Shown one piece after another: positions 8,517 through 61,187 of a stretch of DNA of 64,000 bases. This DNA is from Zygnema cylindricum (Eukaryota; Streptophyta; Zygnematophyceae; Zygnematales; Zygnemataceae). Position 1 is the stretch's first letter; the number at the start of each line of letters is the position of its first letter. Location: contig JBBHKE010002691.1 of the NCBI GenBank assembly GCA_037447655.1, positions 49,039 to 113,038 on the forward strand, given 5' to 3'. A program made the position numbers and the translations under genes. The notes beneath the pieces are model-generated. The model was given only the letters and a program-made list of their open reading frames with translations. It was not told the origin of the DNA and searched no databases.

Positions 8517-8965
8517 CTAGCGCACCTGTTTCTTGGACAACTTCGGCTGGGTTTGGAGATATTGTAAGGTGTGGTGATCCGTGATAACCGTGATCCATTT
8601 CCCCTGAACGTAACACTTCCAAACCTCCAGCGCATTGATGATAGCTATTGTCTCCTTCACATGGGTGTTCAGTTCAACTCTGCTTCCTTTAGTTTGCGGC
8701 TGTCGTAGGCGATGGGTTGAAGGCATTTTCCTTGATCTTGCATAAGGATCGCTCCAATAGCCATATCGCTAGCGTCGGTAATTATCGTCCAAGGTAAGTC
8801 CGGATCAGGAACAGCTAACACAGGGGCGGTAACCAACCGCTCCTTTAGCGTGTTAAAGGCTGCCCCTTGCGATGCTTTCCAATCATAGGGCGCATCATTC
8901 TTGAGCAATTCTGTGAGCGGTGCAGCGATTTTTGCGAAACCTTCGACAAAACGTCGATATAAGGA
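8517..8965 (-). pseudogene. Chromovirus RNase H
   Basis: Contains WTIITDASDMAIGAILMQDQG with the first catalytic Asp, then after a frameshift near 8670-8680 the block HVKETIAIINALEVWKCYVQG (catalytic Glu region) and VITDHHTLQYL (Asp). A TAG at 8517-8519 stands where a Trp is usual in the QVRW motif, so a single substitution explains that stop. The preceding RT frame ends at a TAA (8966-8968) in the FLGLYxxYRRF motif, again one base from Tyr. Confidence 0.9.
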
Positions 8966-10396
8966 TTATAGTCCTAGAAAGCTCCGTAACTCCGTGATAT
9001 TTGCCGGCTGCGGCCACTCCTTAACGGCCTTTGTCTTGTTTGGATCCACTGCGATTCCGTCCCGGCTCACCACATGGCCTAAAAAATCAATCTTCTCCTT
9101 AAAGAAGTCACATTTACTTCTTTTTGCGTATAACTTCTGCTCCCGAAGAACTTGTAGGACCGTCCGTAAGTCCTTCATATGCTCTTCCTTCGTTTTGCTA
9201 TACACCAATATGTTATCTAAGAAGACGATCACGAACGCGTCCAGATATTGCCGAAAGATGGAATTCATTAAATGCATAAAGGTCGCCGGTGCGTTAGTCA
9301 ACCCGAACGGCATTACCCGAAACTGGAAATGACCGTATCGAGTTCTGAACACCGTCTTCTCCACATCCTCCTCGGCAATTCTGATCTGGTGGTAGCCGCT
9401 CCGCAAGTCTATTTTCGAAAAGTATTTGGCACCTCGAAGTCGATCCAACAATTCGTCTATCCTCGGTAGGGGGTACGCATTTTTCACCGTTAATTTGTTC
9501 AGCGCTCGGTAGTCAATGCACATACGGAAACTTCCATCTTTCTTGTTTAGAAAGAGAACGGGAGCTCCATACGGTGACTTGCTTGGTTCAATTGCTCCGG
9601 CTTCAACCAACTCCGCGAGTTGCTTTTTTAATTCGTCCAACTTGGTGTAGCTCATCTTGTACATCCGATTAGCCGGAGGTATCGCTCCAAGAACAAGCTC
9701 TATTATATGGTCTACTTCGCGCTTTGGAGGTAATCCTTCGGGGAGCTTCGGGGGAAATACATTTGCGTACTCCTCGAGAAGTTTTGTCACGACTTCCGGG
9801 GCCTCTTCGGAAGTCTTTCCAATGTCGTCACTTTCTTTGGAGTCGAAGTCGGGGTCCTTCTTCTTCCATTCTTCCAAGATCTCCTTTTTCGCCCCCTCCA
9901 TTGGCTGGACGACCGCCATACAGATCGTTTCCCCTTTCTTGAGTGCCCTCTTAAGCTGTAAGGCCGAAAGCAGGCGTCCCTCTTCCGCTCCCTTACCAGC
10001 CGCTCCCGCTTTTACCTCGAACTCTTCTTCACCTTTCTTTACTCTCATGGCGCCACTTCTCCAATCGATCGTCGGATTCCATTTTTGCAGCCACGGCTTC
10101 CCCAAGATTAACTCATTGTCCCCAAGAGGTAATACATGAAGCGTGTCGTACCATCGGAATTTCTCAATTCCGACGCGTAACCTCGGGGTACGATGGGTAA
10201 TGGATAAGGAACTTCCGTCGGCCAATTGTGCCGACTGAGGATCATTGAGTACCACAAGAGGAAGTTTCAACCTTTTCACCGTCGCCTCGTTAATGAAGTT
10301 CCCCGAGGCTCCGGAGTCCACCATGAAGTTAGTTGCACTCACTCCTATTTGACCCCGAAATATCAGAGGGTCTCCTCCTTCACTGGCTAACCTCAT
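8966..10396 (-). pseudogene. Chromovirus protease and reverse transcriptase
   Basis: The aspartic protease (about residues 15-110) has the active site [12 protein letters not shown]. Reverse transcriptase follows, with [51 protein letters not shown] and [19 protein letters not shown]. The catalytic box reads [11 protein letters not shown]: the second Asp of the usual LDD is Asn, which should abolish polymerase activity. The frame is continuous with gag across 10396, so gag and pol form one polyprotein frame. Confidence 0.95.
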
Positions 10397-18541: not shown

Positions 18542-19074
18542 AGTCGGTTACCATTTTGACTCCCAATCTTTTGAATTTCTTGCTTCAGTATAAGATTGAG
18601 GGTCACCGGCGGAATTTTCACATAGTGATTGCTAGAGGAGGAAATCCTCCTCTCTCGCCGCCGAAATAAAGTAGTGAGTATTTTCGGCATTTCCCCCTTT
18701 TTTATCATACGACAAGCGTGTCGGTTTCCTTCCCCTTGTATCTCTTGTAATCCTCCGTAATTGAACATCTTCTTCAACATTCGGTTCCATTTCAGTCACA
18801 CTCGGCAAACTAGATTTAGAATTTTGAGAATTTCGAGATTCGGAGGACATTCGGGAATTGACAATTTGAGATTCAATGTCAATGTCCCCAGTGTCATTCT
18901 TAATGTCCAGTTTTCTTTTCTTCCTCTTAACTTTAGACCCCCACTCAGGCTCATTTTCTAAATCCGATCCTTCAATGTTCGGAAATTGAGCAATTTCGTC
19001 TTCTTCAAGAAAATCAAGATTTTTGTGAGATTTTGCCGATCCCTCCATTGCTGATTTTAAGTCTTCATGGAAAT
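18542..19074 (-). pseudogene. Copia-B integrase-RT linker
   Basis: A charged Ser/Lys/Asp-rich linker typical of the stretch between copia integrase and RT. It includes SWIGIFVIYSSKGNLYRIYDP (the usual GY-xx-KGYR block), then NIEGSDLENEPEWGSKVKRKKRKL and VQLRRITRDTRGRKPTRLSYD. The frame overlaps the integrase frame by about 200 bases after a frameshift near 19.1-19.2 kb. Confidence 0.7.
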
Positions 19075-19908
19075 CTACATTCCGGGATTCAGTAATTGTA
19101 CTATAAACCGGATCATAGATTCGGTATAGATTTCCTTTTGAACTATAGATGACGAAAATTCCGATCCAACTCTTTGCCGCAAATTTTCCTTTTTTCTTTT
19201 GCGATTCCACATAGACGGTCGCTTGGCATCCCCAAATCCGAGGTGATGAAGTGTCGGTTTTCTGCCGTACCATAACTCGTGAGGATTCATATCACCTAAA
19301 ATTAAAGTAAGCCGCCGATTACAAATGGTGTTGGCGGTTAAAATCGCATCCCCCCAAAATAACATTGAGAGATAGAATGTGTGCACCATGAAGCGGACCA
19401 TTTCTTGTAGTGTCTGGTTTTTCTGTTCAGCTACTCCATTAGATTCTAGGGAGTAAGAAGCCGTCAACTGATGCTTAATTCTCCATTCTCGACAATATTC
19501 ATCAAATGCGGTGAATTCTCCACCATTGTCGGGTCGAATTGATTTCAATTTTCTTTTGCATTGTCTCTCCGCCATGACAGGCCACTCCTTAAATCTCTCA
19601 AGAGCTTCAGATTTTGAACTCAAAAGGATTACCCAAGAAAATCGTGAGTAATCATATACTATCACCATTAAATATCTATTTTCCCCAATACTCTCCAGTT
19701 TAATGTGTCCGCATAAATCGACATGAACCAAATCGAGTGGTTTTTTGGATCTGAATTTTGTATCCTTAGCCGGGTGAGGCTTCCGAATTTGCCTCCCTCG
19801 GCTGCACCCTTCGCATCCATTTACTTTTTCTCCCGATGTCAAATCCAAACCTCTCGCACATCCCACTTTAATCATCAGCCTCAAACTACCCTCGGGTGTG
19901 TGGCACAT
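19075..19908 (-). pseudogene. Copia-B integrase
   Basis: Zinc-binding CEGCSRGRQIRKPHP precedes the catalytic core. LDLVHVDLCG holds the first Asp, LMVIVYDYSRFSWV the central strand, and LKSIRPDNGGEFTAF the second Asp. SLESNGVAEQKNQTLQEMVR has the catalytic Glu in the usual position, followed by WGDAILTANTICNRR and ELWYGRKPTLHHLGFG. All acidic catalytic residues appear present. The frame is open for 277 codons, the best-preserved copia pol piece in the window, but it runs out of frame into the linker. Confidence 0.9.
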
Positions 19909-20634
19909 CTAATGGTGCCAAAGAGTTAAGTCACCCTTAAGTTCTTAAATCTGACCAATCAAACCATCCGGTTGAATTTTTGATTTTAGTCGGCGCCAAA
20001 TTAGACAACTATGCAGATTTTCTGTCACCTCTCTTTCACCAATGACAACTCCTTTTGAGTTTTAATTTCACCTCTCTTTCACCAATGACAACTCCTTTTG
20101 AGTTTTAATTTGAATTGTAGAGTCACTAAGTGCAAGTACACTTCCACCCGCGCTCTGAATTTGAGGCACACTTAGGGAATTTACATATCCGTCCGGAAGG
20201 TATAAAACATTCACTAGACGAGCTTCTGTGAAGTGTTCCATACCATCAAAACGATTTCCGTACCATCAAGATAATAACTAGGCAGGTCAATTCGGACCGT
20301 GCCTACTTTTCCAACCGTATTGACTTGCCCACTTGCCACTGTAATTAATATACATTAATGAGCAGAATCGTGCTTCAAAAAAAAAATCATGAACTGCGGG
20401 CGTACAAGTTTGCATAAGGCGAGTATAGGCTACGACATTCTTTCGTTTCCATCTATTTCTAGCCTTTCGATAAAAAATCGGCATGGACTCCTCTCCAATA
20501 ACAATTTTCCAAAGGTGTCGAAGTTCAAGTTGTCTTTTAATGCATCTCTTCCAAATATAGTAATTCGTCCCATTGAAGAGGACAACTTTGCCAGGCATCT
20601 GAATCAATTCTTCCTCATCACTGTCCTCCTCCAA
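19909..20634 (-). pseudogene. Copia-B gag remnant and degraded protease region
   Basis: The frame at 20634-20287 begins EEDSDEEELIQMPGKVVLFNGTNYYIWKRCIKRQLE, the gag N-terminal block (F-GTNY--WK--M) of copia elements, and continues AYTRLMQTCTPAVHDFFFE. Between it and the integrase only about 400 bases remain, too few for the rest of gag and protease, so a large internal deletion is inferred. A perfect 43-base tandem duplication (20026-20068, 20069-20111) lies here. Confidence 0.7.
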
Positions 20635-20959
20635 ATCAGACTCATCTTCAGCTGCGAATTTCCCCTTTTGAATTCTTTATCTCCTCTCTTCTTCAGTTTC
20701 ATAGTAACCATTATCATTGCCAATTCGCAGCCTGTCCCCCTGAGGGGCAGCTCAGAGCTCACTCTGAAGTACACACTTTGAAGAACAGAGCACATTTTGA
20801 AGAACTCCAGTCAACAATGTCTGAAGTCTCTCCTCCGTCAGAAACACCCCTGCTCTTCCTACTTCCTTGTGTTCATAATTATCTGTAGGAAACGTGTCTT
20901 CATCTTCTTCAAACTGGCCACACTGATAGTGACTTGTGTCACAAAATGACTACTACTGG

Positions 20960-20985
20960 GAGCATCTACCAGCTCCGATACCACT
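20960..20985 (-). promoter_or_regulatory. Copia-B primer-binding site
   Basis: On the minus strand, directly inside the LTR end (TAACA), the sequence reads AG then TGGTATCGGAGCTGG, one mismatch from the TGGTATCAGAGC initiator-Met primer site. Confidence 0.75.
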
Positions 20986-21240
20986 TGTTATAAAAAGGAT
21001 CATTTTATGCATACATTTTCAGCGGAAGCATTCAAAAATTGCCAGACATCAGAATAATTTCAGAATCATAAATAGAGAGAAAATCAACCACATAGAAAAT
21101 ATATTCAATCGAATTCTACATCTTTATTTTCCCCTCAACTTCACTTCTTTTTGATATATAAGGCTATACAGTTGGATTTGTGCGATCTCGGGCGATACAA
21201 TTCGATATATTTTGGTACGGACGAACCTACCCTGTTTATA
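20986..21240 (-). repeat. Copia-B 5' LTR (outer end undefined)
   Basis: In plus coordinates the LTR starts TGTTATAAAAAGG at 20986, next to the primer site. The outer end was not located; the stretch to about 21240 is given as a minimum. No partner LTR remains because the 3' half of the element is gone. Confidence 0.5.
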
Positions 21241-22179
21241 TATGTGACGTCACGGACTCACACGTGCGGAATCTGACGGACGATTCCATGAGAAAAAGTA
21301 CAGAAAACAAGACAAAAGAAAAACGGTTGTTTGTGGCTGAATAGTGACACGTAGCATTATATGATAAGACCACTCAAATAGACATTTCACAGCATAGTGA
21401 ACACACGGAGATATAAAATGCATCCAGGCATTAGAAAAAGGCATCTCACATAGACATTACAATTCATAGAATTCATGGAATTCAGACATGACATTCATTC
21501 TGAGTCCTATGTAAAGAGATAGATGAGATTAGTCCTTAGGAGGATGAATCAACTTTATTAGACTAGAAAGTTCAAGAAACAATTGTACTTTGTTGTTCTA
21601 TAATATTAATGAAATCAACAATTGTACTTTGTTGTCCTATTATATTAATGAAATCAAAGCTGTCTAAACCTACCTCTCTCTAATCTACCTATCTATGCCT
21701 TTTCCCTTCTCTGATCTACTACCGTGACTCTTTAAGGTCCACCCAAGCGGTGTATGTTTGGGACGCGACTACTTTAGCTTGAGGCCACGGGCTACGGTGA
21801 TTGTCCTAAACCAATATATACTACACTCCTCATAAAATATTCTCTCTCAAAGCACCAGAAGACAAAACTACAAATTCCACACAAACTCCACTTAGGCGAA
21901 ATTGAAACTTAGGCCCTGAATATGATGTAGGGGTCTAATAAAACATTAGTGCTCCCAACTTCCACGTTACCTGGACATAAAACCGTACCACGGTTCTACA
22001 CACTAAATAAATTACCAATCGTACAAGACCGAAGATCGTACAGGACCAAAGAATAGTTGTACAGAAACAGAATAATAACCTGACGCAACAATAATATGAA
22101 ACTGAACATAAAACGTCACTCAAACAATAATCGCGCCAGAACGTAACTAGACATAGATTTACACATTGATATCCAACAA
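21241..22179. other. Noncoding, with a 39-base tandem duplication
   Basis: No gene seen. At 21580-21657 a 39-base unit (CAATTGTACTTTGTTGT...ATTAATGAAATCAA) is present twice with a few mismatches. Part of this stretch may belong to the Copia-B LTR. Confidence 0.5.
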
Positions 22180-23919
22180 TTTATACACCTAACACTAATT
22201 TCGATACACATTCCCGTGTTGTAGCGGCTATTGGCGGCGTTCTCATTTTCGACTTTTAAACATGTGAGAACAAGTTTGTGTGATTTTCTCCCGTCTTTAT
22301 TAATATGAATAAAGTTTGAGGGCATTTTTCCATGGCAGTGCCAATCACTTTCGCATTTCGATGTCGTTTTCTAACACATTTTTTGTATGGTTGTACGTTT
22401 TCCGTAGCAGCTTTAGTGTGGACTAAGACATTTCGTACACTACATTATTTAAAAATCGCCTAAATTAGAGTTATTGAAGCTAATAAAACCGTAAATTTTT
22501 TAGCATGAAGGAAAAAAAATAATTATTAATTCTATTTGAGGTTCGAGGGTCAAAATTTGGGGGTGCCGAATTAGTGTTATTAAAAATAATAGTGATTTAT
22601 GGTGTAGCGTAAATTTGTTTACGTTGCTAGCGCAACATGACTGTACTACATTCAAATGTGTAATCGACCCACACGCTAATGCTAATTTTTTTGAGCTTGT
22701 TGTTTAGTTTGGTTCGCTTTGTTTTAGCCTAAGGGTTAAAGTGCATCAGTCTCATAGTGAGATTATTCACTTAAAAACAGTTCATTTCCGTACGAGGCTG
22801 TACTGTTTTTATTTTGTAACATCTTTAATGGAGATTCGGCAAGATTCTCCAAACATTTGGGCGACAATGTCAACCATCCAATTCGTTGTTTTTGAAGCCA
22901 AAGCTCATTTTAACCAGTGTCAGGCTACACTGTTATTCGCTCATGGTGTTAAAAACGATATATATGCGCCCCTAAATTTCAACCCTTGAACCCAAAATCG
23001 AACTAATAATACTATTTTTTTCTTTACTTAAATCTAGATATGGTTTAAGTAGCATCAATGATTATAAAATGGGTGGTTTTTAATAGTGCGGTGTACAAAA
23101 TTTGTTAGTCCGAACTAAATTTGCTAGTTTTCATATACATTCGCATAGAAAAAGAGTATCAAATATAAGAGTCTACACGCGGAAACGAGCGCGTAAACAC
23201 AAAAAGCGCACTCAGATTTGACTCCCAATCATAAAGAAAAGAAAATCGCGTGAACCTAATCTCAAATGCTCAAACGTCAAAAGTGTAAACACAGGCAGCT
23301 TCAACAATGGAATAAGTATCAAATGTATGTTAGATGGAAAAATTATGTATCTACACTACGTTTTGATTTCTCTACCAACTTTAACCTTTGATAAATAACC
23401 TAATGCCTTGTCTTTTGGCTCATTGTGTAGTCATGCTCTATTGTTGGAAATTTGTGGTGTTGAGATTGATCTGTGTCACTTGTAATGGCCGATGCCGCCT
23501 ATCAAGAGAGTAAAAGATAACAAATTTGGGTTGCTTTTCAAGCGATAGGTGCGATCTACCATTTGTTCTCCTTTTGCGATGGTGATTCCCTCTCGCATTA
23601 TTTTGATTATGCATCCAATACACCACAATGAGGTGATGCTAGTTTCTTAAATTTGAAGAGTGGAGTAGAGATTCTTCTTGAAATTTGCAACATAGAGTAT
23701 GTTTTTTGCTGTCTAAATTCTCAACTTGCCATCTTCTAATGCTTTGCTTTATGTGTCACCAATAATTTTAATTAGCATGGTAAGAGTTCTTTTCCCATAT
23801 AAATGGAAGAAGGTGTAGTCTCGATGAAGTTTATATAGCACTTGTGGGTGGAGGAGGCAGTGTCGATCATTCAAGCGTAGGCGCAAACATGAGAGGACAA
23901 TGCCACCACCGCAAGTAAG

Positions 23920-25172
23920 CTAACAATTTCTTTTTCCGCTTGTCTTTCCCCTTCCTCGTTTTCTATTTGCAAACGTTATCGTTTTGCTTATCATACGTGT
24001 ACTTGCGACACATAGAAATAGAGCGTAGTGGAAATTGAAATTTCTTGGAGTGACAGAATTTGGGATATGATGGGCAACATTACCATATCCAAATTCTGGT
24101 GAGGGAGGGAGGGTTAAAAGGGAAACTACTGGAGTGGGATAATTAGAGGGAAAATGTGGGAAGAAAGCGGTCGACCAGGGCAGGTTAACGGAGTTTGAAG
24201 AGGCATAGTGCGATGCGGCGTTAGAAGATTGTGGAAGGGATGGAGAAGGGGAATAATGGTGAGGATAAGGAAAATTTGGAGAGAAAGCAAGGTGTGGAGG
24301 GAGAAGGGGGGTGGGAAAAACTGGTGGGTTGGCATGGGCAATTTTGGCATTCTCTCCAGTTTTAGGGGGATTGGAAGCCTCAGCTGCCTTCCGCCATGCC
24401 AATTTTCGACAGTCGTCAACGGAATGTCCTTTTGTTTTGCAGTAGGCACAAAACAAACGCTGCATCCCCCTTGAGTTAGTCTTCTGATTTTCAGCGATAA
24501 AGGCATTTGCATGAGAGAGATTTTGAGCAGAAAAAGAGAGAAGTTTTGTCTCTTCGTGTAAGAGTTTGGTACAAAGTGAGTGAAAGGGAATGGATTGGTT
24601 TAGATTGTCAAACGAGGAAATGAAAGGGGAAAAGGTTTCAGGGAGTCCTCCCAAAAGGGTTGAAGAGAGGTCCTCGTCGAAAAGATGCACGCCGATCATG
24701 GTGCATTTTCCGGCCGACAATTTGATTGTGCTAATCCAATCCTGCATAGATTCCGACGGCTTTTTCATGGTGTAAAAAACGCTTGTTTTTGAATTCGGCG
24801 AGCGGCCCATCCGGTTTGAATGTAAGCTGCTTGAAGACGACTCCAATCCTCGGCGGAAAAGGAGGCGCCGCAAATAAGACGAGTGCGCTCTGTAGTAAGT
24901 GACATCATTAGGCAAGCGTGCGCATCCTCATCCTTTTGTTTCCATGTAGCGATTGCCAACTCTTTTGTAGCTTTTTTTTCTGGTGTATCAGTAGAATAAA
25001 GGATAGGAGGTTTTGAATTTCCTATAAAATGGTCCCAAATCTTCTTGTGTTTGAAAAAATGCATGGCTGAAAATGACCAATCATAGAAGTTTTGGCCATC
25101 AAACTTCTGAATACTATTAGAAGTGGCATGGGTGGGCCCATAACCTATTGGAGGTGGATTGGCGGAAGCCAT
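23920..25172 (-). pseudogene. Copia-D gag
   Basis: Ty1-copia gag on the minus strand in two overlapping frames. The likely start is MASANPPPIGYGP (25172), followed by IQKFDGQNFYDWSFSAMHFFKHKKIWDHF, the UBN2-type gag N-terminus. A frameshift near 24.78-24.90 kb leads to the second frame with MQDWISTIKLSAGKCTMIG, LLGGLPETFSPF and the zinc knuckle CAYCKTKGHSVDDC (CX2CX4HX4C), then a Pro/Ser-rich tail. No protease or pol follows. The last 30 or so codons run into block A sequence, so the element is truncated at about 24021. Confidence 0.85.
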
Positions 25173-25179
25173 GAAATTG

Positions 25180-25592
25180 TACACAAGAGAAAGATTAATG
25201 CATTGGAGAAGAGAATTGATTTGTATTTGGGATGATTTCATTAAGTGAGAAGAGTCACTTATATACAAAATATACAATGCTAATTACTGTGGAGTTTAAG
25301 CGCTCTACGGTGTGCTATAACAAAGGGATCCTAGTCTAGATTCTAACAAATTTATGTAAGACAAAAGACTGGACCGTCGCCCAAAAGACTGGACCGACGG
25401 TCAAAGGACTTCTACGTAAAAAGACTTGACAGACGTACGTAACAAAAAAGTACAACTGATTGGACCGACGTATGGAAGTACGGACAGGACCAAAAGTGAG
25501 ACGTCCAGAAAAGACGGTCAACAAGACTTGATCGACGTAAGAAAAAGTACGGACAAGACAAAAATAACCTGACGCTAAATGTCCCTTAACAT
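25180..25592 (-). repeat. Copia-D 5' LTR or leader (borders uncertain)
   Basis: This stretch separates the gag start from the resumption of block A homology at about 25593, so it should be the 5' LTR and leader of Copia-D. It contains repeated GGACCGACG, GACGTACG and GACTTGA words. TG/CA ends were not unambiguous. Confidence 0.4.
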
Positions 25593-28191: not shown

Positions 28192-29082
28192 TCAGTCTTG
28201 GAGATCCTCTCGCCCAATCTCAAGAATCTCTCTTTGGTCTTCTAGTGTCTTTCGCTCAGAAGAATACCCTCGTCCGCCGTACTCTCGTTCGCCGTACCCT
28301 CGTTTGCCGTACCCTCGTTTGCCGTACCCTCGTCTGCCATACCCCCGTTTTCCGTACCCTCGTTCACCGTACCCTCGCTTGCCGTACAGTTCTACAACCG
28401 AAAAAAAAAAAAAAAAAAAGAACAGCAAAAACAACCACAAAAAGTGCAAACTCTTTAACAAAGGTTAACAAATACAAAACCCATTTAGAGCTCGTTTGAT
28501 GTATTTGATATGTTCACAAACAAGGTCAGCAATTTTTTCTGAAGAAACAAACAATGTAGACAATTTATTTTTCTTTTCACCTCTTCCGTCTTGCAGATCC
28601 TCCCTTCCCTCCTCGAGAATCTCTCTTTTGTCTTCTAATATCTCTCGTTCGTCTTCTAGTGTCTTTCGTTCAGGTGAATATCCCTTTCCGGACCATTTTT
28701 CTTTTTCCCATCCCTTTGGTTTATATCCGGCCCATTTGTGATGAAGTTCTATGACCAAAAACACAAGAAAAAAAAAACCCATTAAAAGTAGAAATATAAG
28801 AACAAGAACGTCAACAAAAACAACAAAAAAATGGAACCCATTTGGTGTTTTTACGTAGTCACAAACAAGCGACCAATATTGCTAAAAAAAAAAACATTTT
28901 TAACCGGTTATTCCTTTATTTACATTTCGCCCCTTTCATTCTCTCGAAGTAGCAAGTGAACAAGATAGACAAAACCAGACACAAAAAGCGCATAATGACT
29001 ATTCAAAGACGAGTAGACATGTGTGTATGCATGTATGTACATATATAATATATCAATATATACATACATATATAATATATCA

Positions 29083-34768: not shown

Positions 34769-36330
34769 GATGTGCCGCCCTAGCCAAACTCCCCATTTGA
34801 CAATGTTTTCCACCTGGATCGACGGACGTCTTAATGCTAGAAGCAGGGGCAGAGCCCCGCCTCCACCTTATGGAATAAGTAAAATAACGTTAAAAGTAGT
34901 GGTATTTCACTTGCGGCAAAGCCTCCCACTTATGCTACACCTCTTAAGTCATTTCACAAAGTCAGACTAGAGTCAAGCTCAACAAGGTCTTCTTTTTTTG
35001 ACGTGGCATGACATGGCGTGACTTAGTGATACGTGGCAAGATTGAATTGAGCAGCGGGGATCCCGGACGACATAAGGACGACTTAGTCGGCGACACGCGT
35101 CTACTCTATGATCTTGTCGTACAGAGGTAGTACATAAAGTACATCGGCTACAGTAATTCTTAGTACTTTATAGTATTTTGATTGGAGCGTACTTTGGTAG
35201 ATAGGGTTTGTGAGAGAGATGTAGGACTTAGAATATTTTAGACAGCCACCTCTCCTTTGGGAGTTTTGTATAAATTGGCATCTTTGCTGGCTAATAACTT
35301 ATCGGTTGGTTGGCCGTTTTAGTGATTTTTTTTGCTACAGACTCAGGGGAGTCCATGCTTCACAAGGGTGCAGTTAAACTGTCTGTTTGCCTTCCTGGAC
35401 AGCACTGGATGTGGCTTGAAGTGGGTTAGCTAAATACTACAGCAGTGGTTGTGGCTTGAAGTGGGTTAGTTAAATACTATCTAGAGGCTGGTTGTGGCTT
35501 GAAGTGCGTTAGTTAAATACTATCTAGAGGCTTCCTGTATTTGGTCTAGTGGAGGACACAGAATTTCACATATAACTCAATTCAAACCAGCAAACCTTCG
35601 ACCAACTGAAGGGGAATTGAATTAGATCCCTCAATAACTATAGAACCTGAGGTTCACAGATGGGTAATAGACTGGGTTAGTCAACGGTTTAATGTCGAGA
35701 ACACTATATTCTAGCAAGTGCATTATCTAAGAATACCGGAAAAAGAGTTGACTTTAGAAGATAAAAATTTTGAGTTTTTACAAAGGTGTTGGAGGGATAA
35801 TTATTTAAAAGTTCCGTCTTAAGAGGAGAATGTGTTTTACCTCAAGTTAGTTAAAATAAAGGAGGGGATTATATAACAGTAATAAGGGATCGATTTTTTT
35901 TCTAAATGGGTAATTATGAGTGTAGAATATAAATTTATGAATGTTGTAGACGTCCACGAAAGAATCGCACGAATTTGAGTTGTATTAAGAAAGTTATAGC
36001 GATTAGTATATTTAAGTGAGAGCGCGAGGTCAAACTACTGAGTGAGTGTTCGTTGAAGCGGGTTAACGGTCAAATCGGTAGCGGAATTTCAGGCGTACGG
36101 TTGATAAAGTATTAAAAGAATCAATAGTCCGATTGGTACGCACAATGGTTTGTTTTGTACAATTTTAGTACAAAACTTCATTTTCACTTTATATAATTTT
36201 GTAGGTAGTTTCGCACGTGAAATTTGAGACGAGCGTTCGTGTCAAGTCGCGTTTCAATTCGCGCCCTCTTTTGAACGTAAATGTTACGTAGTGATAGGTA
36301 GGGTTTCATCGGTTAGAAAATGCTACGTGG
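34769..36330. other. No gene recognised; 40-43-base tandem repeat
   Basis: At 35408-35532 three copies of a unit containing GTGGCTTGAAGTGGGTTAG-TAAATACTA follow one another (unit starts 35411, 35451, 35494). The rest, to 36330, holds no supported gene. Confidence 0.55.
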
Positions 36331-40191: not shown

Positions 40192-41776
40192 CTAATCGTT
40201 CTTTTTGTCTCCCTCTCCCTCTCCCTCTCCCTCTCCCTCACCCTCTTTTGACGTTTTTCCCTCCCCTTCCTTCTCGTGCTCCTCTCCCGTCGATTCGTCG
40301 TATTCTAAAAGCTGTCAGGAAAAATACCATCAAAAACAAAAAAAAGAAAAAAAAAAAAAGAGGTTTAACATCCTCATCATAAAGGGGGAAAATATTTCGA
40401 CAAACGTGAACCCGTTACCTCTAACGGAAATGGTTTATACTTTGGGATTCTTGGGTAAAAAAAGGCACCGAAATGATGATTGTTTTCTAACGTTAACAGC
40501 AATAATCTGTACTTTTGTCCTTTTAAACTTTTGTAGTTTTCCACTTTGTACTTTTGTACTTTTGCATTTTGGTGCTTTGTACTTTTCAAGTATTGCAATT
40601 ATGTACTTTTGTATTTATATGCTTTTGGCCTTTTGTCCTTTCGTACTTCTCAAGCAACAGTACACAATCGCGCACGAAAAAAATAAAAACCAATTCATAT
40701 TTTTTGCCCCACTTTGACACTTGTAGGACTCTAAGATGCCGGTTGTTACTCTCTCTCTCTCTCTCTCACTCTCTCTCTCTCACACTCACTCTCCCTCTCC
40801 CTCTCTCCCTCCCTCCCCCCCTCCCTCGCTCCCTCTCTCCCCCCCACTCCCTCTCCCTCTCACCTCTTTTTCTCTCTCTCCCTCTCTCTCCCTCTCTATC
40901 CCTCCCTAAAATCTGTTTCGCGGGGCACACTATATTGTACCCTCCTACAAAGAGATACGAATTGTTTTTTTTTTTTGTGCGCGATTGTATACTCCTGCTC
41001 AAAAAGTATAAAAGTACGAAAGGACAAACGCACAAAGGACAAAAGCACGAAACTGCCAAAGTACAATAAACAAGTACAAGAAAAGTACACTATGTGCCCC
41101 GAAATTTTACCCTTGAACCTAAAAATGTGTCACCGACACTATTTTTTATTTTTTTTCTTAACGATAATTATTTAAACGATTAAAACAGAAGTCACGTCAT
41201 TGGGCACCGAATTAGAGTGAAAAAAACGGTAATAGATATATAAATCCCATGGTAATAATTGTCCACACCAATAATGGTAGACAGTGTCCCTCTACAGAAG
41301 AGTTTGTCATACGGTAAGTAATATCAATATTGGAAATGGGGAGGAGGGAGAGGAACGTGGGAGGGAGAGAGAGGGAGAGAAATGAAAGAGGGTGAAAAAA
41401 ATGCGGGAAGGAGAGGTAGAGGACAAAGGAGAGGACTAGGGGTAAAAGAGAGGAGGCAGAATAGGAGAGGGAGAGGGAGAGGGAGAGGGAGAGGGAGAGG
41501 AAGAGGGAGAGGGAAAGGGAGAGGGAGAGGGAGAGGGAGAGGGAGAGGGAGGGGGAGAGGGAGAGGGAGAGGGAGAGAGAGAGGGAGGGAGAGAGGGAGG
41601 GAAGAGGGAGAGGGAGAGGGAGAGGGAGAGGGAGAGAGAGAGGGAGAGGGAGAGGGAGAGGGAGAGGGAGAGGGAGAGGGAGACTTCCCACCTTTGAATT
41701 CCCCTTTAATAAAGGCATGAATCGCCACGGCTCCCACCACCCCCGGCACTATGTAGAGAAGGGCCGGCTGAATAAG

Positions 41777-41823
<47 letters not shown>

Positions 41824-43291
41824 AAAAAAAAAAAACAAAAAAAGAGACAAAATAAGAGGCATTACTGCTCTCTTGTGACACTCAGGGCAACGCAAGCTGA
41901 AAAATGCAAAAAAAAAGGGTAAAAATAAGGCGAAAAGAAGGGCAAAAAAAAGGGCAAAAAACCGAAAAAAGACGAAATAATAAATAAATAAACTTCCTTT
42001 TTTTTACCTGGGCCGCTTGAAACCAGTTCATAACAATAATAGTGGCGATAATCCCCCCACTGTACCCCCCAAAGGCGCTCCAAAAGTACCTCACTCCCTT
42101 CCCTCTATGGACGTCAAATCGGAGGGCCAGGGCCAAAAATATCCCTAAAATCCCCAGAAAAACAAAGAAAACCCCAAAATTAACAAAGAAATCCGAAATA
42201 TTACAAAGAAAACCTCCAAAATGATAAATAAAAAGACAAAAAAAAAAAAAAAGTTGAAAAGAAAAAATGAACATATAAAAACACGTTGTGGCATTGTTGT
42301 TTCTGTTGGACACAAATTGAAGAGAGAGGCAGAGGGAGAGGGAGAGGAGAGGCAGAGGCAGAGGGAGAGGGAGAGGCAGAGGCAAAGGGAGAGGGAGAGG
42401 GAGGCAGGGAGAGGGAGGAGGCAGAGGGAGGGGAGGGGGAGAGGGAGGGGAGGGAGAGGAAGAGGGAGAGGAGAGGGAGGGAAAAGGAAAGGGATGGAGG
42501 GGAGAAAGGGAAAAGAGGGAGGGGGAGAGAGGGGGAGAAAGGGGGAAGGTAGAGAGAGAGAAGCGAAGAGAGGAAGAAGGAGGGCTATGTTTTAAATCCA
42601 TTTTGTTTACTAAACATTTCAGTAATTTCTCGACAACACAGATTTCAAAGCAATAAAGTATTATTTTATTGTATCTATTTAATATATATTGATATACAAT
42701 CCAACAATATACAATACAATACAAATACATAACATAATATATTTTTTATATGTATAAAGAGAGAACAAAAGAGAGAACAATATATATCCGTACATATATA
42801 GTATAGTACCTGGGATGACGATATCTCCCAGGCCCAAAAGAGAGAAAGGGCGTGCGACGTCACCGGTGGGAAAGAGAAGCTACAGAAAGCATTTTGTCGG
42901 ACCACAATAAGAATAAAAGAAGAAAAAAGAAAAGAAGAAAGAAATAAAAGAAAAAAAAGGAAAAGAAGAAAAGGAAAAAAGGAAAAACGGAAAAAAGGAA
43001 AAAAAATAAAAAGAAAAAAGGAAAAAAGAGAAAAAAATCAGAATAAAAACGAAGAGAAAAAGGCATGAGATAAGAAAAATAAGAAACACTCAAAAAAAAT
43101 ATATACAAAGATACATAATACAGACATACAAACACACACATATACAAAGAGAAAGAGAAAGAGAGAGAGAGGGGAGAGGGAGAAGGGAGAGGGGAGGGGA
43201 GGGGAGGGGGAGGAGAAGAGAAAGAGGAGAGGGAGGGGGGGGAGGGGAGGGGAGAGGGGGGAGAGGAGAGGAGAGAGAAAAAGAGAGAGAG

Positions 43292-43350
<59 letters not shown>

Positions 43351-46300
43351 CACCTTAATAGGGGCGTCAAAGGACTTGGCCACACTGACCATCACCGGAG
43401 TACAAAAAACCCAAAAAATGTCGTAAAAAAATAACCCTCCCTGCATTCATAAAAACAGGAAAAAGAAACAAAAAAAAAACAATAAATAGATAAAAAATAG
43501 ATAAAAAAACTCAATCAACGGATAAAAAAAACGATAAATAAAGAGAAGTAAAAATCGCCAAAAATACCCCTTTCTCTCCCTTCTCCCCTCCGCTCTCTCC
43601 TAAACCTTACCCACTCTGTCTCCTTTAATATTCCTCGCCCATATTCAAACTCCGTCGCTCCCCTCTCCTCTCTCCCCTCTCCCCTTTCGATTGATCTTTG
43701 AATTTATTTGATTTGTTGATGAGGAAGAGAGAGGCAGAGGGAGAGAGGGAGAGGGAAAGTGAGAAGGAGAGGGAAAGGGAGAGGGAGAGGGAGAGGGAGA
43801 GAAAGAAGGAGAGGGAGAGGGAAGGATGCAGAAAAATAAGCTCACCAATAAGATTGCTCCAATTTTGAAAGATCCCAAAGAAAGCAATTCAATACCCTGT
43901 ACCGGGAAAAAAAAACAAAAAAAAAGGGAGAGAAAAAAAATAAAAAGAAAGGCACCACAAAACCTTTGCGTCAATTTCAAGTTAGGCCCAAAAAACTTCC
44001 ACCATTTTCAAATAAAAAAAAGAAAAAAAAAAAAACAAAGACAAACGATAAACGACTTGTGTACCAAAAAAAAATATTTGAAGATCCGAATATCCAAATT
44101 TATAATAGGTTTTTTCATTTATTCACAAATCGCTCTGTTAGTGTTTTCCTGGTGTTTTGATGGCGTTTTTTAGGTTGTTTGGAGGAAAGGCTTTTCACCT
44201 GTATCGTGAAGGCAAGACAGACATGTTGTAAGATCTCTATCGACAATGTTTTTAGAGTTCCTTTGGCACTTCAATACTATTTTCAGGGTGTTTTTTCAGC
44301 ATTTTAACAGCGATTTAACAGCGTTTTAACAGTGTTTTAAAAGTGTTTATAGGTTGTTTCAGAGGTATTCAAAAAGGCTTTTCACCTGTATCGAAAAGGC
44401 GAGCCCCAGTGTGTTGTTGGCGAGCCAATGCTTTTTCAAAACGTACCAGGCACAAAAAACAGAAGCCGGTACTCCGGCGACTACTTGGGCGCGATTAAAC
44501 TCCACATCTAAACCTGCCACGTGCTACAACTCCCAATTCAGGATGAGATGACAGCTGGCTGTCGTCACAACTTGACTTCAGTTGACTTGACTTGACTAGA
44601 CTCGACTCGACTCGACGTGATGTGACTCGACTTGACCTCAACTCGACTTGGCTCGACTCGACTTGACTCGACTCGACTCGGGTGTTACTACAGAGTTTCT
44701 GATTCAGGATGGAATGACAGGTGGCTGTTTTTACAAGTAAGTTTTACTTGACTTGACTCGACTGACTCGACTCGAGTGTAACTAAAGCGTTCCCGATTAA
44801 GGATGAAATGACAGGTGGCTGTGTTTATGAATTGAATTAAATTGACTCAGTTGACTTGACCTGACTTGACTCAAATCAACTTGATTTGACTTCGCCTTGA
44901 CCCAACTTGACTCAAGAATTACATATTGGCTATAACAGAATTCCCAAACCAGGATGAGATGAAAGGTGGTCGTTTTCACGAGTTAATTCCATTTGACTTG
45001 GCTTGACTCAGCTTGACTTGACTGTAGTGTTATTATTGGCTATTGTACATTCTCCATTCTGGACGAGATAATAGGTGACAGTTTCCAAGAGTTAGTTTGA
45101 CTTGACTCGACTCGACTCACTCGACTCTTCTTCACTTGACTTCACTTCACTTCACTTCACTTCACTTTCTTCACTTGACTTCACTCGCCTAGACTTCCCT
45201 TTATTTCACTATATTTGACTCAACTCGACCTCACTTGACTCGAATCAAATGTTACTAATAGCTACTGTTCAATTCGCTATTCAGGAAGAAATGACAGGTG
45301 GGTGTTTCAGGAATTAAATTGAACCGTAAAACTGAAACACAAACGCAAAACTGAAAGTATGAACTGTAAAAACGGATCGGTCTCTTTTATTCCACCGTGA
45401 TGATACCAAAATAATATAAGATATTAAACCGTTTTTATCAAAAAAAACGTTGAGAAATCACACACCATTAATGTATGGAGCTTTCCATACAATACTTTCC
45501 GTACTCCACAGTTTTGGGAGAAATCCTGCGATAAGGGGAAGGATAGAAGCCCTAAAAAAAAAAAAACCAACAATCAAGAGAAGAAAAAAAAAAAAAAAGA
45601 GGAAACAGAATCAGTTCAGTTACAGTTCAGTTATAGTTCAGGTATAGATCAGTCATAGTTCATCAGGTATGAGGAAGACTGAAAGGATTCGCTTGATATG
45701 TTTATAAAACAAATAATTGAAAGAAATTATTCAATATTAACATTAATTTACTAAACCAAATTTGTTGAAATTTGCAAAATCTTCTCATAATAATTTATTA
45801 TAAACATGTCTCTGATCATAAAAAAAAAAAAAACCAATAATCGAATATTTAATGTTAAAAATGCATTAAACTCCAACGACAGCACACCAAGTATGACGAA
45901 GTTATACAAATATATATAAAAATATAAATATATATATATAATGATAAGAATATTTTAAGTGTCAGAACTATGTTTCGCAACGGCAGCACATAAGAATACG
46001 ACGAAGTAAACTGTCACTATTGTCAGAAAAAAATATTAATAAACAAATATACACATATACACACATATAACATATACATGAAAGCAATTATGATTTTCAA
46101 CCCTGTTAAACAATACGACGTACCCCAATGCCAACATACCAAGTATGACGAAGTAAACTGTCACTATACATATACAAATGCTACTTATATACATATATAT
46201 ACATACATTTATAAAAGCGATTATGAGACATAAAACTGTTCCAGTGTGTCGTATTCTAAGGCTTACCCTGAGTACGACAAAGTAAACTGTCACTCAACAT

Positions 46301-48347
46301 ATATAAATATAGATATATATATACATATATATACATATAAATAAAAACGCAATTATGGTTTTTAAAAACGTAAAAAGTGTGCCAAACCTTAACACCAGCA
46401 CCCCGAGCACCACGAAGTAAACTGTCATGATACATATATACATAAACATATTTATATACATACATACAAATACATATACACAATTCCGAAACATAAAACC
46501 GTCAAAATTTTGTCATACCCTAACCCCAATACCCCGAGCACCACAAAGTAAACTGTCACTATACTTACATATCAACACAAAAATATCTATAGACACATAC
46601 ACATACATATACACCTACACATACATATACACATGCATATACATATACATATGAAAGCAATTATGGTTCATAAAACCACCAAAAGTTTGTCATACCCCAA
46701 CGCCAATACCCCGAGTACAACAAAGTAGGCCGTGAGGACGGCGTTGACGAGGTCTTTTGGGAGAAACTTGAAGAGGAGGAAGAGAGAGACCAAAACCGCA
46801 CTCCCTATCAACGGAAACCGCATCGCATGCTCCTTCGACATCGTCTCCTGGAAGAAAAGGAACAAAAACAGGGGGAAGACAAAAAATGTAAGTGAGGATG
46901 AAGAAACTTGAAGTGGAGAAGAGAGAGAGAGAGAGAAAGAGAGACCAAAACCGCACTTTCAATCAGCAGAAAACTGCAGGATATGCTCCTTTGACATGGT
47001 TTCCTGGAAAAAAAGGAACAAAAACAGAGGAAAAAGACAAAAATTGGAAGTGAGAATGAAGAAGGTTGAAGCACAGGGAGAGAGAGAGACCGGCACCAGA
47101 CTGCCTATGGGAGGGAATGGGAAGGCGAGATCCTGAAGAGGGGGGATCGCAAAGAGCAGGAGCAAGGAAGGGAAAAGGAGAGGCAGAGAGCGAGAGAGGG
47201 AGAGGAAGAGAAGATGAAGGGAAATTAAAGGGAACTGCAGGGCGAGATCCCGAAGAGGGAGGATGGTGAACGGCAGGAGCAAGGGAAGAGGAGAGAGAGA
47301 GAGAGGGAAAGGGAGAAGAGGGAGAAGGAGAGGGAGAGGGAGTGGGAAAGGGGGAGAGAGAGGGAGAGAAGATTAAGGGAAACTAAGGGGAATCGCATGG
47401 TGTGCTCCTTCGTCATTCTCTCCTATTCCCATCTCACGAAAATAAATAAATAGAAAATAATATATATACATATATATATAAAATTTAAAACTGATAGTTT
47501 ACATAAAGACAGATTGGAGAAATGTTAGAGACACAAAATCTCAGTAAAAAAAGGACAAAACGGAAAAAAATCATGAGAAATCAGGAAATGTCAAACTTAA
47601 AAACTGTCAAAAACTACAAATAAAAAAAAAAAAAAAGCAGAAATTTAGAGAAAAAAAGAAAACAAAAAAAAACAAGAAACAAAAAAAATGAAAAAAAAAA
47701 AAAAAAAAAAGTACAAATCACGGGAAACGTGAGAAACGTAAAAAATATTAGCCTGTCGAGCCTACATCTTCCTTAAAGATTTAAATAACAAAGATACATA
47801 AAAAAAACCCAAAAAACAAATAAATTGAACACCTCTCTTTCAGATCTCGCAACACAACAGGTTTCGTAGTACCCCTCCCTCTTCACCTTCCCTTCCTCCC
47901 TCCTTCCCTCCCTCCCTCAAATTTCGGTATTATCTCTCCCTCTCAAAGAGGCAGAACCAGAAACGTGAAAGAGTAAACCCCAAAGTTTTAAAAACCCCAA
48001 ATAGGCAAAATCCAAAAACTTCAGACCTTAAACCCGAAAGCTTAAACCTTTCAATCAGAAGTTAAAACAATAAACCCGCAGGTTTAAACCTTAAACCCAA
48101 AAGTTCAAACAAAAGTTTAAACTCAAAATTTTAAACAACCAAAAAGTTTAAACCTTAAACCCGGAAACACAGACCCAGAAGTTTAAACAGAAGTTTAAAC
48201 AGTTTCAAAAGGAATAACCAGGCACGCTTACCATGGGAGCAGTAGTTTTAACGGAGCGCCAACTCCCGACAAAAACGGTGAGACAGGCGGTGAGGACAAC
48301 ATTCACATTGGGATCCACTCTAATAAAGAGAGGAGCCACAGCTAGTC
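40192..48347 (-). CDS. SPP: Signal peptide peptidase (exons 2-11; first exon not found)
   Basis: Intramembrane aspartyl protease of the ER (family A22B) that cleaves leftover signal peptides within the membrane. Exons in gene order: 48347-48232, 46847-46696, 45551-45466, 44513-44386, 43896-43846, 43440-43354, 42879-42810, 42144-42008, 41767-41692, 40304-40192. All junctions are GT-AG, phases agree, and 337 codons are open to TAG. Catalytic motifs: FFYDIFWVF (exon 7), GLGDIVIPG (exons 8-9), QPALLYIVPG (exons 9-10). Other plant SPP blocks are ETMSKEHAMRFPLIGSA, GIELLSLGSFKIGAILL and FDAPIK. The C-terminus is a variable acidic tail EYDESTGEEHEKEG with an (EG)n run coded by a GAGGGA microsatellite. 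It ends KKND, a KKxx ER-retrieval signal. Plant SPPs are near 340-350 aa, so only some 15 N-terminal residues are missing. The last acceptor was chosen by phase (TTTTAG at 40305). Confidence 0.96.
40497..41110. repeat. Imperfect foldback in SPP intron 10
   Basis: The left arm (40497-40690) has GTACTTTTGTCCTTTT words and ends ACAATCGCGCACGAAAAAAA. The right arm (40970-41110) is roughly its reverse complement (TTTTTTTGTGCGCGATTGTATAC ... AAAAGTACGAAAGGACAAA). They enclose a TCTCTC/CCCTCT tract at 40748-40910. In the transcript this could form a long hairpin. Confidence 0.7.
41460..41690 (+). repeat. (GGGAGA)n array at the 5' end of SPP intron 10
   Basis: Nearly pure GAGGGA hexamers on the plus strand (CCCTCT on the SPP sense strand). 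It starts within ten bases of the exon 10 donor (GTGGGAAGTCTCCC). ORFs read from it are artefacts. Confidence 0.95.
41777..41822 (-). repeat. 46-base T run before the exon 10 acceptor
   Basis: An uninterrupted A run on the plus strand, poly-T on the SPP sense strand, about ten bases upstream of the CAG acceptor. It is an extreme polypyrimidine tract for intron 9. Confidence 0.9.
42320..42590 (+). repeat. GGGAGA-type array in SPP intron 8
   Basis: GAGGCAGAGGGAGAGG words, purine on the plus strand and pyrimidine in the SPP transcript. Occupies the middle of the 665-base intron. Confidence 0.93.
43155..43345 (+). repeat. GGGAGA and (GA)n array at the 5' end of SPP intron 7
   Basis: Begins directly after the exon 7 donor; on the sense strand the intron starts GTGACAGGTCTCTCTCTC. 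The first 34 bases are pure CT repeats, then CCCTCT-type hexamers. Confidence 0.95.
43730..43830 (+). repeat. GGGAGA array at the 5' end of SPP intron 6
   Basis: Starts about 20 bases inside the intron on the sense strand (GTGAGCTTATTTTTCTGCATCC then CCTCTCCC units). Confidence 0.93.
44160..44385 (-). repeat. Ladder copy of the exon 5 3' edge
   Basis: The plus-strand sequence around the exon 5 donor (GGTTGTTTCAGAGGTATTC then AAAAAGGCTTTTCACCTGTATCG at 44352-44393) recurs at 44170-44210 as GGTTGTTTGGAGGAAAGGCTTTTCACCTGTATCGTG. The copy therefore includes the last bases of the exon and its splice donor, about 180 bases further into intron 5. Between them GTTTTAACAG is repeated several times. 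Confidence 0.75.
44514..45310 (-). repeat. Ladder of exon 5 acceptor-side intron units
   Basis: The acceptor-adjacent segment of intron 4 (CAGGATGAGATGACAGCTGGCTG, 44538-44560) recurs in variant form at about 44707, 44795, 44950, 45058 and 45283. The units are separated by TTGACTCGACT and TTCACTTCAC short repeats. Unit spacing is roughly 90-225 bases. Confidence 0.85.
45890..46695 (-). repeat. Ladder of exon 3 3'-edge copies
   Basis: Six degenerating copies of the last 50-odd bases of exon 3 plus its donor follow the intact exon into intron 3. The word AAGTAAACTGTCA (AAAGTAGGCCGTGA in the exon) marks them near 46546, 46415, 46280, 46151 and 46004, with a weaker one near 45898. Spacing is about 130 bases. 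Each copy still reads roughly TVYFVVLGVL on the minus strand and several keep a GTATGA-like donor. AT-rich CATATATACATA repeats fill the rest of each unit. Confidence 0.9.
46848..47426 (-). repeat. Ladder of exon 3 5'-edge copies
   Basis: Upstream of exon 3, copies of its first 50-60 bases recur near 47003-46940 (ETMSKEHILQF, with a CCAG acceptor), 47140-47090 (FPFPPIGSLVPVSL), 47262-47220 (LALQFPLISL) and 47425-47365 (ERMTKEHTMRFPLVSLNL). The copies are separated by GAGAGG-type tracts. Reading frame is lost in most of them. Confidence 0.88.
47427..48231. other. Remainder of SPP intron 2
   Basis: Poly-A tracts and, at 47975-48200, a run of TTTAAAC-CC-AAAGTTTAAAC-type repeats (about 10-15-base period, AAACCC/GTTTAAAC words). 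No exon. Confidence 0.6.
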
Positions 48348-49190
48348 CTGTTAAAAAGGAAAAAAAAGGGAAAAAAAAGGAAAAAAAAGGGAAAAAAAAG
48401 GAAAAAAAAAGGAAAAAAAAAGGGGAAAAGAAGAAAAACAGAGACATCAAAATTGTTGAAATCGGTTAAATAAAAAGAGATGTAACAGATTGGATCCACT
48501 CTAATAAAGGGAGGAGCTACAGCTAGTCCAGTTAAAAGGGAAAAAAAAAGAAAAAAAAAAAGTAACATGGAAAGTATTCGATTCACTTTAAAATTTTGGA
48601 TCCACTTTAATAAAGAGAGGAGCGACAGTAGACTGTCGTCAAGCCCATAAGAAAAAAAAAGATAAGAAAAACATAAGAATTAAGGATACATTCTACTAAA
48701 ACAAAGAAAAGTGACAGCTTTCCACAAGATAGAGGCATTTTATTAGCCAGACCTGTCCTTAAATAATGGAAGAAGGATACTTTGACTGAGAAGAATGAAA
48801 AAACAGGAAAAGATATAAAAAATATAAAAAGGTAAAAAGATATTGGACTCGCTGTAATAAAAAGAGATGTGACAGCTGATCCTATTCAAGTCAATCAAAA
48901 AAGGAAAAAAAACAGAAAACAACAAAAACCCAACGTGAATAGCTTTTACTAGCAATAATAACACTAATTCGATTGCGATTTTTTCGACCGCTATTTTTGT
49001 TGTTCTTCAAACACAAAATAGAGTTACTAATACCAAATTTTTTCTTCTTAACGAGTGGTTCACTATCATCCACGTTATTTGCACCGAAAATATAATTATC
49101 AACATTGAAACAGTCCTTCAAATTCATAATACCGATTCCCTTTATTCCCTTTATTCACTTTAAGAATATGAGAGATGACAGCCTTCCATT
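48348..49190 (-). repeat. Ladder of exon 2 5'-edge copies
   Basis: The first 35-45 bases of exon 2 (GACTAGCTGTGGCTCCTC then TTTATTAGAGTGGATCC on the sense strand) recur upstream at 48528-48492, about 48638-48598, 48724-48683, 48882-48844 and 49188-49150, progressively more diverged. In the nearest copy the acceptor CAG has become CTG. AAAAAGG-rich sequence separates the copies. Confidence 0.9.
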
Positions 49191-60331: not shown

Positions 60332-60679
60332 CCACTGTTCAGTTACTTCATCTTTGCAATCACTACTTCATTTTTTTTGTCTTTGTTATGCTTGATGACT
60401 ATTCTTCCTCATTCCTGTAGGATCTTAAGCAAAATAGTTTCACTTAAAATAATTCACAAAATAAAAATCATTACACAGCGGAAGCTCATAAAAGACAAGA
60501 AGAATATTCAGCCAAAAATATTTATAAGTGTTCTTGGCCGAAGCCTCTTTACATCATGTCTCTTCTCTTTCTTCTCTATCCTCTTTAAGTAATCTCTTAC
60601 TCCAATATCAAATCCTCTATGATTCGATAATGTAAGAGCGATTAATCGAATTTGATTTATTCGATTCGATACTCTGCAC

Positions 60680-60793
60680 ATGTACACTGTGTTGTTTTGA
60701 GACAACTGCTGGTAGTGAAGATGAAGAAGATGCAGCATGTACACTGTGTTGTTTTGAGACAACTGCTGGTAGTGAAGATGAAGAAGATGCAGC
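60680..60793. repeat. 57-base perfect tandem duplication
   Basis: The unit ATGTACACTGTGTTGTTTTG ... GATGCAGC occurs at 60680-60736 and 60737-60793, apparently without mismatch, so it is recent. Confidence 0.95.
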
Positions 60794-61187
60794 AGTAGTC
60801 ATCGTAGAACAAATCAAGAGAGGAAGCTTCCACAAATACCGATGGCTGAACAGCAACTTTGACAGTGCCGGATGGATAGGTATAATAAAAATGAAAGTTA
60901 ACACTCTCATCATGAAGTTACCAGACGAGTACAATAACATAGTGTACGGAGTACACAAAATGATTGGTAGTTCATAAAAGTTGAATACTGTGGTCCAGAT
61001 GATACTTGTGCAAGAAAATACCATGGAGATTAGGAGAAGAGGGAAGAGTGTTCAAGCTCTATTAGCAAGAGGGGACCGATGGGGGAAAAACCCGAAGAAA
61101 CCGTACAAAGGGGAAAGAGATCAGTCTCGAGGACCAAGGCCCCCAAAAGGCCTTTGTCATTCTTTGATTAGCAAACTCGTACTGTAA
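60794..61187 (+). pseudogene. Copia-F gag fragment (same family as Copia-A)
   Basis: Plus-strand frames give MKVNTLIMKLPDEYNNIVYGV and then MILVQENTMEIRRRGKSVQALLARG. These parallel KVNSLLMNLPDDYENIVNRV and ILVQENTIEIRRGGKSGQAL of Copia-A at 12.1-12.25 kb. The tail is basic (KNPKKPYKGERDQSRGPRPPKG), as expected before a zinc knuckle, but no knuckle or pol follows. This is a 5' fragment only. Confidence 0.7.

Follow-up and report, generated by a model that had tools for sequence, protein, structure and literature searches.

Introns of what is probably a signal peptide peptidase (SPP) gene in the streptophyte alga Zygnema cylindricum carry partial copies of the edges of neighbouring exons. How did such copies arise, from which template were they made, and what do they mean for the growth of introns? 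These questions are addressed here in a window of 64,000 nucleotides, the whole stretch of DNA analysed (assembly GCA_037447655.1, contig JBBHKE010002691.1, positions 49,039 to 113,038), and all coordinates below are positions within it.

The gene lies on the minus strand, where an open frame across nine exons gives a spliced product of 301 amino acids. This product matches the Pfam family Peptidase_A22B with 270.7 bits and is at most 77% identical to any of the 120 public proteins listed. Exons were placed with the guidance of homologs, and one search for exon 1 yielded no candidate. In a tree of 25 proteins, the land-plant clade (11 rows, support 99/98) does not include the product, which groups with Mesotaenium, Closterium and unnamed sequences in a part of the tree that is not resolved. 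A reading of this DNA from sequence alone (hereafter, the sequence-only reading) had called the gene a plant SPP gene; the family assignment agrees with the Pfam match, but an origin in land plants does not agree with the tree. The exons are as follows.

41680..48347, minus strand: SPP gene, exons 2-10, defined by GT-AG junctions and the open spliced frame
48232-48347, 46696-46847 and 45466-45551, minus strand: exons 2, 3 and 4
44386-44513, 43846-43896 and 43354-43440, minus strand: exons 5, 6 and 7
42810-42879, 42008-42144 and about 41680-41767, minus strand: exons 8, 9 and 10 (end of exon 10 approximate)

Each of the 17 edges of exons 2-10 that border readable intron was searched against its own intron, with 100 dinucleotide shuffles for comparison. 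The 5' edge of exon 2, both edges of exon 3 and the 3' edge of exon 5 score above the best shuffle, and the 5' edge of exon 5 does so narrowly (best match 21/24, score 36 against 34.5 for the best shuffle; the next matches, scoring 34, are just below). Matches to the exon 2 acceptor cover 67/74, 66/78 and 58/80 bases, and those to the exon 3 acceptor 82/98 and 31/40. The exon 3 donor is matched at 58/70, 60/82, 52/67 and 49/72, with a further 31/46 barely over the best shuffle, and the exon 5 donor at 53/63. No copies of exon sequence were found at any other of the 17 edges tested. Three further edges exceed their shuffles on the intron side only, through about nine bases plus a T run (exon 4 5' edge, 21/22), GA runs (exon 7 3' edge) or a 21-base sequence repeated three times in tandem (exon 9 5' edge, 27/33), and a T run at the exon 10 5' edge scores the same as its best shuffle. 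The exon 4 match, at 45821-45842 on the minus strand (GATTATTGG and a T run), is perhaps simple sequence, perhaps a very small sixth series. The copies form five series, here called ladders, whose units share one orientation.

48490..49190, minus strand: ladder A, exon 2 acceptor edge (edge probes, alignment, shuffles); units A1 48490-48532, A2 48595-48636, A3 48680-48726 (weak), A4 48843-48885, A5 49151-49190 (weak)
46938..47424, minus strand: ladder B, exon 3 acceptor edge (TRF period 156, probes, self-BLAST, shuffles)
46938-47089, minus strand: B1, a unit of 156 bases in which a polypyrimidine tract and AG precede about 95 bases of exon
47090-47134 and 47209-47272: B2 and B3 (both weak)
47373-47424, minus strand: B4, nearly all exon-derived, with hardly any intron
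45846..46550, minus strand: ladder C, exon 3 donor edge (TRF period 131, spacing about 131 bases); units U1 46485-46550, U2 46354-46419, U3 46222-46284, U4 46089-46155, U5 45937-46008 (weak), U6 45846-45903 (weak to exon, closest to U4)
44160..44226, minus strand: ladder D, exon 5 donor edge, with one copy, D1 (53/63 aligned, z 9.7)
44675..45301, minus strand: ladder E, intron side of the exon 5 acceptor (five of five units above 200 shuffles); units E_1 44675-44724, E_2 44769-44818, E_3 44920-44969, E_4 45039-45078, E_5 45261-45301

Individual copies were judged with a fixed core for each edge and 200 mononucleotide shuffles per unit. The sequence-only reading had counted 21 extra copies. Fifteen of these lie above every shuffle (A1, A2, A4, B1, B4, U1-U4, D1 and E_1-E_5) and are identical to the core at the exon site over 63-91% of core positions; A3 ties with the best of its 200 shuffles, and A5, B2, B3, U5 and U6 fall under theirs (z 1.9-3.6). 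A masked self-BLAST of 38-51.5 kb gave 31 direct matches and one inverted match, and 27 of these 32 lie within the five ladders, the remainder being simple sequence or the inverted pair. That pair, at 40595-40700 and 40955-41056, forms an inverted repeat whose arms, about 106 bases long, are 75% alike. The copies therefore exist where the sequence-only reading had placed them.

Since the introns are filled with simple repeats, such copies might reflect chance similarity of low-complexity sequence, or else copies of transposons. Against this stand the 15 units above 200 shuffles and the single inverted match among 32, and the rest of the window offered the ladders only three short weak matches (16-40 bases, E 0.004-0.044, all to ladder A), so that they showed no transposon source within it. 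For the 15 strong units both origins are rejected on the shuffles, the self-BLAST and the rest-of-window search; these include the comparison with shuffled sequence that had been set beforehand as a test capable of refuting the claim, and the search also agrees with the expectation that ladders would not match transposons elsewhere. Chance or transposon origin may still apply to A3, A5, B2, B3, U5 and U6, and as an account of the ladders overall we consider it very improbable.

Transposon sequence is present in the window. Seven open frames outside the SPP gene were compared with Pfam, and six have retrotransposon domains and one has no domain; further frames were judged by eye only. The window offered no recognisable second gene with exons that could have acted as a control. 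Aspartyl protease, reverse transcriptase and integrase domains of a retrotransposon lie at 7458-10396, and SH3-like, integrase and copia-type gag pieces at 18632-25277, all on the minus strand. Two adjoining minus-strand frames at 28195-28881 contain the similar stretches EDQREILEIGREDLQD and EDKREILEEGREDLQD, and beside them is an array of 15-base repeats (28265-28387). The only Rfam match in the window is a 186-base fragment of eukaryotic large-subunit rRNA on the minus strand at 34788-34973 (RF02543, 155 bits). A 57-base tandem duplication, 98% alike, occurs at 60675-60794.

What the units contain bears on how they were made. Those of ladders A, B, C and D include both sides of a splice junction, and those of ladder E are intronic only: in alignment they end before the AG, contain no exon sequence and are set apart by GACTC-type pentamers. 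Tandem duplication across each junction, as the sequence-only reading had it, is thus upheld at four edges and not at the exon 5 acceptor. In B1 the decoy acceptor is complete, a polypyrimidine tract and CCAG leading into about 95 bases from the exon, and B4 reads ERMTKEHTMRFPLV where the exon has ETMSKEHAMRFPLI. D1 shares 21 identical bases with the exon 5 donor, CGATACAG before the junction and GTGAAAAGCCTTT after it. The AG or GT is kept at the homologous position, or no more than 2 bases from it, in 9 of the 12 copies assessable by hand and is lost in A1, U3 and U5; this count leaves out A3, A5, B2 and B3 as not assessable, and ladder E as ending before the AG. Each ladder also has its own simple repeat close by. 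As had been proposed, the intact copy is always the one contiguous with the exon, and the open spliced frame uses no ladder unit.

The ladders had also been described as losing similarity with distance from the exon. Rank correlations between order and similarity bear this out for ladders A (rho -0.9) and C (-0.94), and do not for B (-0.4) or E (+0.3); the combined permutation P for the four is 0.029. Ladder B is not monotonic, its outermost unit B4 being nearer the exon than B2 and B3.

Some of these features would be expected of ordinary intronic minisatellites that happen to overlap exon edges, whose units are copied from one another and whose old copies stay recognisable wherever conserved exons provide the comparison. 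Tandem repeats abound in the gene region (coverage is 28-48% between 40 and 52 kb and 0-12.5% in the other 4-kb bins), ladder E has neither exon sequence nor gradient, and TRF reports short-period arrays confined to introns at 48025-48112 and 42161-42222. How strongly the ladders favour edges depends on what is counted. A random segment of 95-156 bases in the SPP gene spans exactly one junction 20-25% of the time, which gives P 0.0015-0.004 for four ladders of four, P 0.007-0.016 for four of five with ladder E as a miss, and P 0.03-0.07 for four of seven with both intron-only arrays as further misses. Because exon sequence makes a copy easier to recognise, this enrichment, and with it a preference of duplication for exon edges over intron interiors, is suggestive only. 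However, the masked self-BLAST of 38-51.5 kb found no long-unit intron array away from the edges, which speaks against minisatellites. Nor are simple repeats sufficient, since introns 6-9 are rich in them and have no exon-bearing ladder.

The template of the copies is best addressed in ladder C, each unit of which combines some 34 bases of the exon with the donor region and a TA-rich filler. We aligned 32 exon-derived bases by hand, allowing U3 a gap of 2 bases and leaving out one inserted base of U5; given these, the block can be read in the frame of the exon in all units. Columns informative among the six units only number 2, 1 and 7 at codon positions 1, 2 and 3 (binomial P 0.013), and eight of the nine that can be assessed are synonymous, one further column not being assessable. 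States private to a single unit are distributed differently, with 9, 3 and 4 (Fisher P 0.043). We simulated neutral unit-to-unit copying on the tree of the units, in 1500 runs under two transition biases. Simulated changes were 28-33% synonymous; at least eight synonymous columns appeared in 0.5% and 2.9% of runs, and a synonymous fraction of 8/9 in no run of 1500. At least seven third-position columns were reached in 3.6% and 6.7% of runs, so the third-position count is weak when taken alone. The 12 exon-unit pairs of ladders A-D differ at 23, 13 and 49 sites by codon position, an excess at third positions that is partly expected, since selection acts on the exon irrespective of the units.

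Where the differences shared among units are mostly synonymous, the simplest reading is that a coding lineage connects the units, and that this lineage is the exon itself. Exon 3 has the shortest branch in the unit tree (0.05 compared with 0.15-0.25; bootstrap supports 38-71%) and is the closest sequence to U1-U4, four of the six units. U5 and U6 are closest to other units, and U6 and U4 agree in 26 of the 32 exon-derived bases. From their codon pattern, the units of ladder C seem to be copies that the live exon gave off at separate times.

One part of these units had another source. The sequence TGACAG/TTTACTT is identical in U1-U5 (46004-46558, minus strand) and absent from the exon, and the remainder of the units has diverged; therefore the left ends, at least, went from unit to unit. 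This common left end is what minisatellites would show, and it would also fit unequal exchange in which the left end came from an older unit and the remainder from the exon. The same sequence resembles a splice acceptor ahead of a 34-base mini-exon. TGACAG was considered separately as an element common to several ladders and rejected, as it has opposite orientations in different ladders; it occurs 38 times in the window against 26.7 expected, and 2 of 100 shuffles contain as many. On balance, with the shared differences mostly synonymous and the exon the nearest relative of four of the six units, we regard an origin as ordinary minisatellites as unlikely.

Some units might instead be under selection as alternative exons, poison exons or splicing decoys. 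A second-position T never varies in the units of ladder C (0/41 cells); in the four gapless units the count is 0/28, compared with 26/90 T cells of the intron part (Fisher P 0.0004). This constancy is not readily explained by neutral decay, but the test was devised after looking at the data. The unchanged TGACAG/TTTACTT of U1-U5, the 21 identical bases spanning the donor in D1 and the complete acceptor of B1 point the same way. Against selection, the mini-exons of ladder C would be 34 bases long by hand count and would shift the frame, and first-position divergence is consistent with neutral decay (a hand estimate). Frames read through the true exon 3 donor, extended to the D1 donor or entered from the B1 acceptor soon reach a stop; from B4 the frame is open for 65 codons and then meets a stop. 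Selected units are accordingly a quite improbable explanation, and decoy isoforms, if used, should mostly be degraded, judging from these predicted reading frames.

The explanation that we favour, and think fairly probable, is that the ladders are repeats of the kind named "mirages" in lancelets: tandem duplications straddling splice junctions, with the exon copy left intact, with ladder C as a set of snapshots of its exon, and with simple repeats assisting. Segments of about 95-190 bases that straddle a junction would be duplicated in tandem, repeatedly at the same edges. Each event would leave intact the copy contiguous with the exon, which we infer to be kept by selection, and would push a truncated exon edge with its intron flank deeper into the intron, to decay there. 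At the exon 3 donor, the live exon would have acted as template for one unit after another over time; extending this model to the other edges is an extrapolation. The intron-specific simple repeats between units probably assist slippage or unequal exchange, and use of decoys would presumably be rare or end in nonsense-mediated decay.

Although the sequence-only reading knew of no named description, precedents exist. Mirages are tandem repeats spanning junctions in lancelet genes; those of the globin genes have units of 150-160 bp at acceptor or donor edges, and many copies keep AG or GT. The SPP units resemble them in spanning junctions (ladders A-D, not E) beside an intact true exon, in occurring at 5' or 3' boundaries (the acceptors of exons 2 and 3, the donors of exons 3 and 5), and in that many copies, not all, keep AG or GT. 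Similar, imperfect repeats, again like those of the SPP ladders, occur in lancelet PGBD5, and a gene model annotates part of them as exon (PMC3902484). The SPP case differs in its setting, a streptophyte alga with five edges of one gene involved, one of them intron-only, and whereas splicing of lancelet mirages was checked by RT-PCR, the SPP ladders are known from DNA sequence. Lancelet mirages leave regular splicing undisturbed and vary in copy number from one haplotype to another; for the SPP ladders a single sequence was analysed. Units of lancelet BflGb6 share 81-100% of their sequence and have been homogenised within their cluster; the strong SPP units match the exon at 63-91% of core positions, and their shared differences suggest serial copying from it. 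Concerted evolution with edge units excluded, which is reported for BflGb6 and does not enter the definition of a mirage, is not found in ladder C, the sole ladder examined, because U1-U4 are nearest the exon and only U5 and U6 are nearest other units. The SPP case is therefore a mirage in structure, with a history that looks layered, not homogenised, in ladder C.

Two other systems share single features with it. According to PMC4974935, a tandem duplication over an intron-exon boundary of a potato gene likewise affected a plant gene, but as one recent event that made a new intron used in mRNA; the SPP gene has many copies, its intact frame needs none of them, and existing introns grew. The Rogers model, with its Drosophila cases (PMC2891723), also has local tandem duplication altering exon-intron structure. 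There, however, intron gain comes from duplicated segments with AG/GT inside coding exons, unlike the SPP duplications across existing junctions, which lengthen introns. No report of ladders at several edges in algae was found in the open-licence papers searched, and the word 'tandem' is absent from the main text of a Zygnema genome paper (PMC11096116). What may be new is the lineage, a streptophyte alga, the involvement of five edges in a single gene, the low degree of homogenisation and the codon signal.

A related alga offers a possible parallel. The SPP model CLOM_g13407 of Closterium sp. NIES-68 (P0120) contains AYFVFLGVMAIG twice in tandem at residues 92-115, and this repeat ends at the position of intron 3 in the window, which is the edge of ladder C. 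When 126 SPP-family proteins, the 120 listed and 6 more, were scanned for repeats of 10 residues matching at 8 or more, internal repeats appeared in two, P0120 and P0020 (in a C-terminal tail); another Closterium SPP model (P0033) has no AYFVFLGVMAIG repeat. The repeat in CLOM_g13407 is possibly a decoy unit annotated as coding, and a repeated exon 3 donor edge in this predicted protein would suggest that such duplication is recurrent or ancient in these algae. There is a practical warning here that gene finders can mistake ladder units for exons, as happened in the lancelet PGBD5 model and possibly in CLOM_g13407 too.

The proposal that the duplications lengthen introns agrees with the dimensions. 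Ladders span 850 of the 1144 bases of intron 3, 788 of 952 in intron 4, 577 of 1384 in intron 2 and 226 of 489 in intron 5. The ladder-free remainders (294, 164, 807 and 263 bases, in the same order) are of similar order to the introns without exon-bearing ladders (405, 474, 665 and 240 bases).

The structure is real and of a known kind, and the claim of serial snapshots comes from a small sample of one gene in one genome. That exon edges in this lineage are persistent sources of outward duplication, each shed copy lengthening the intron and preserving a dated snapshot of the living exon, is a tentative idea that we would not yet expect to hold. If true, the stacked copies would be a fossil record of past synonymous states of the exon and of the timing of intron growth. 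If the pattern is genome-wide, it would offer a testable route of intron lengthening other than transposons, would extend lancelet mirages to the algal relatives of land plants, and would supply an internal record, with units keeping the look that the exon had when they were shed.
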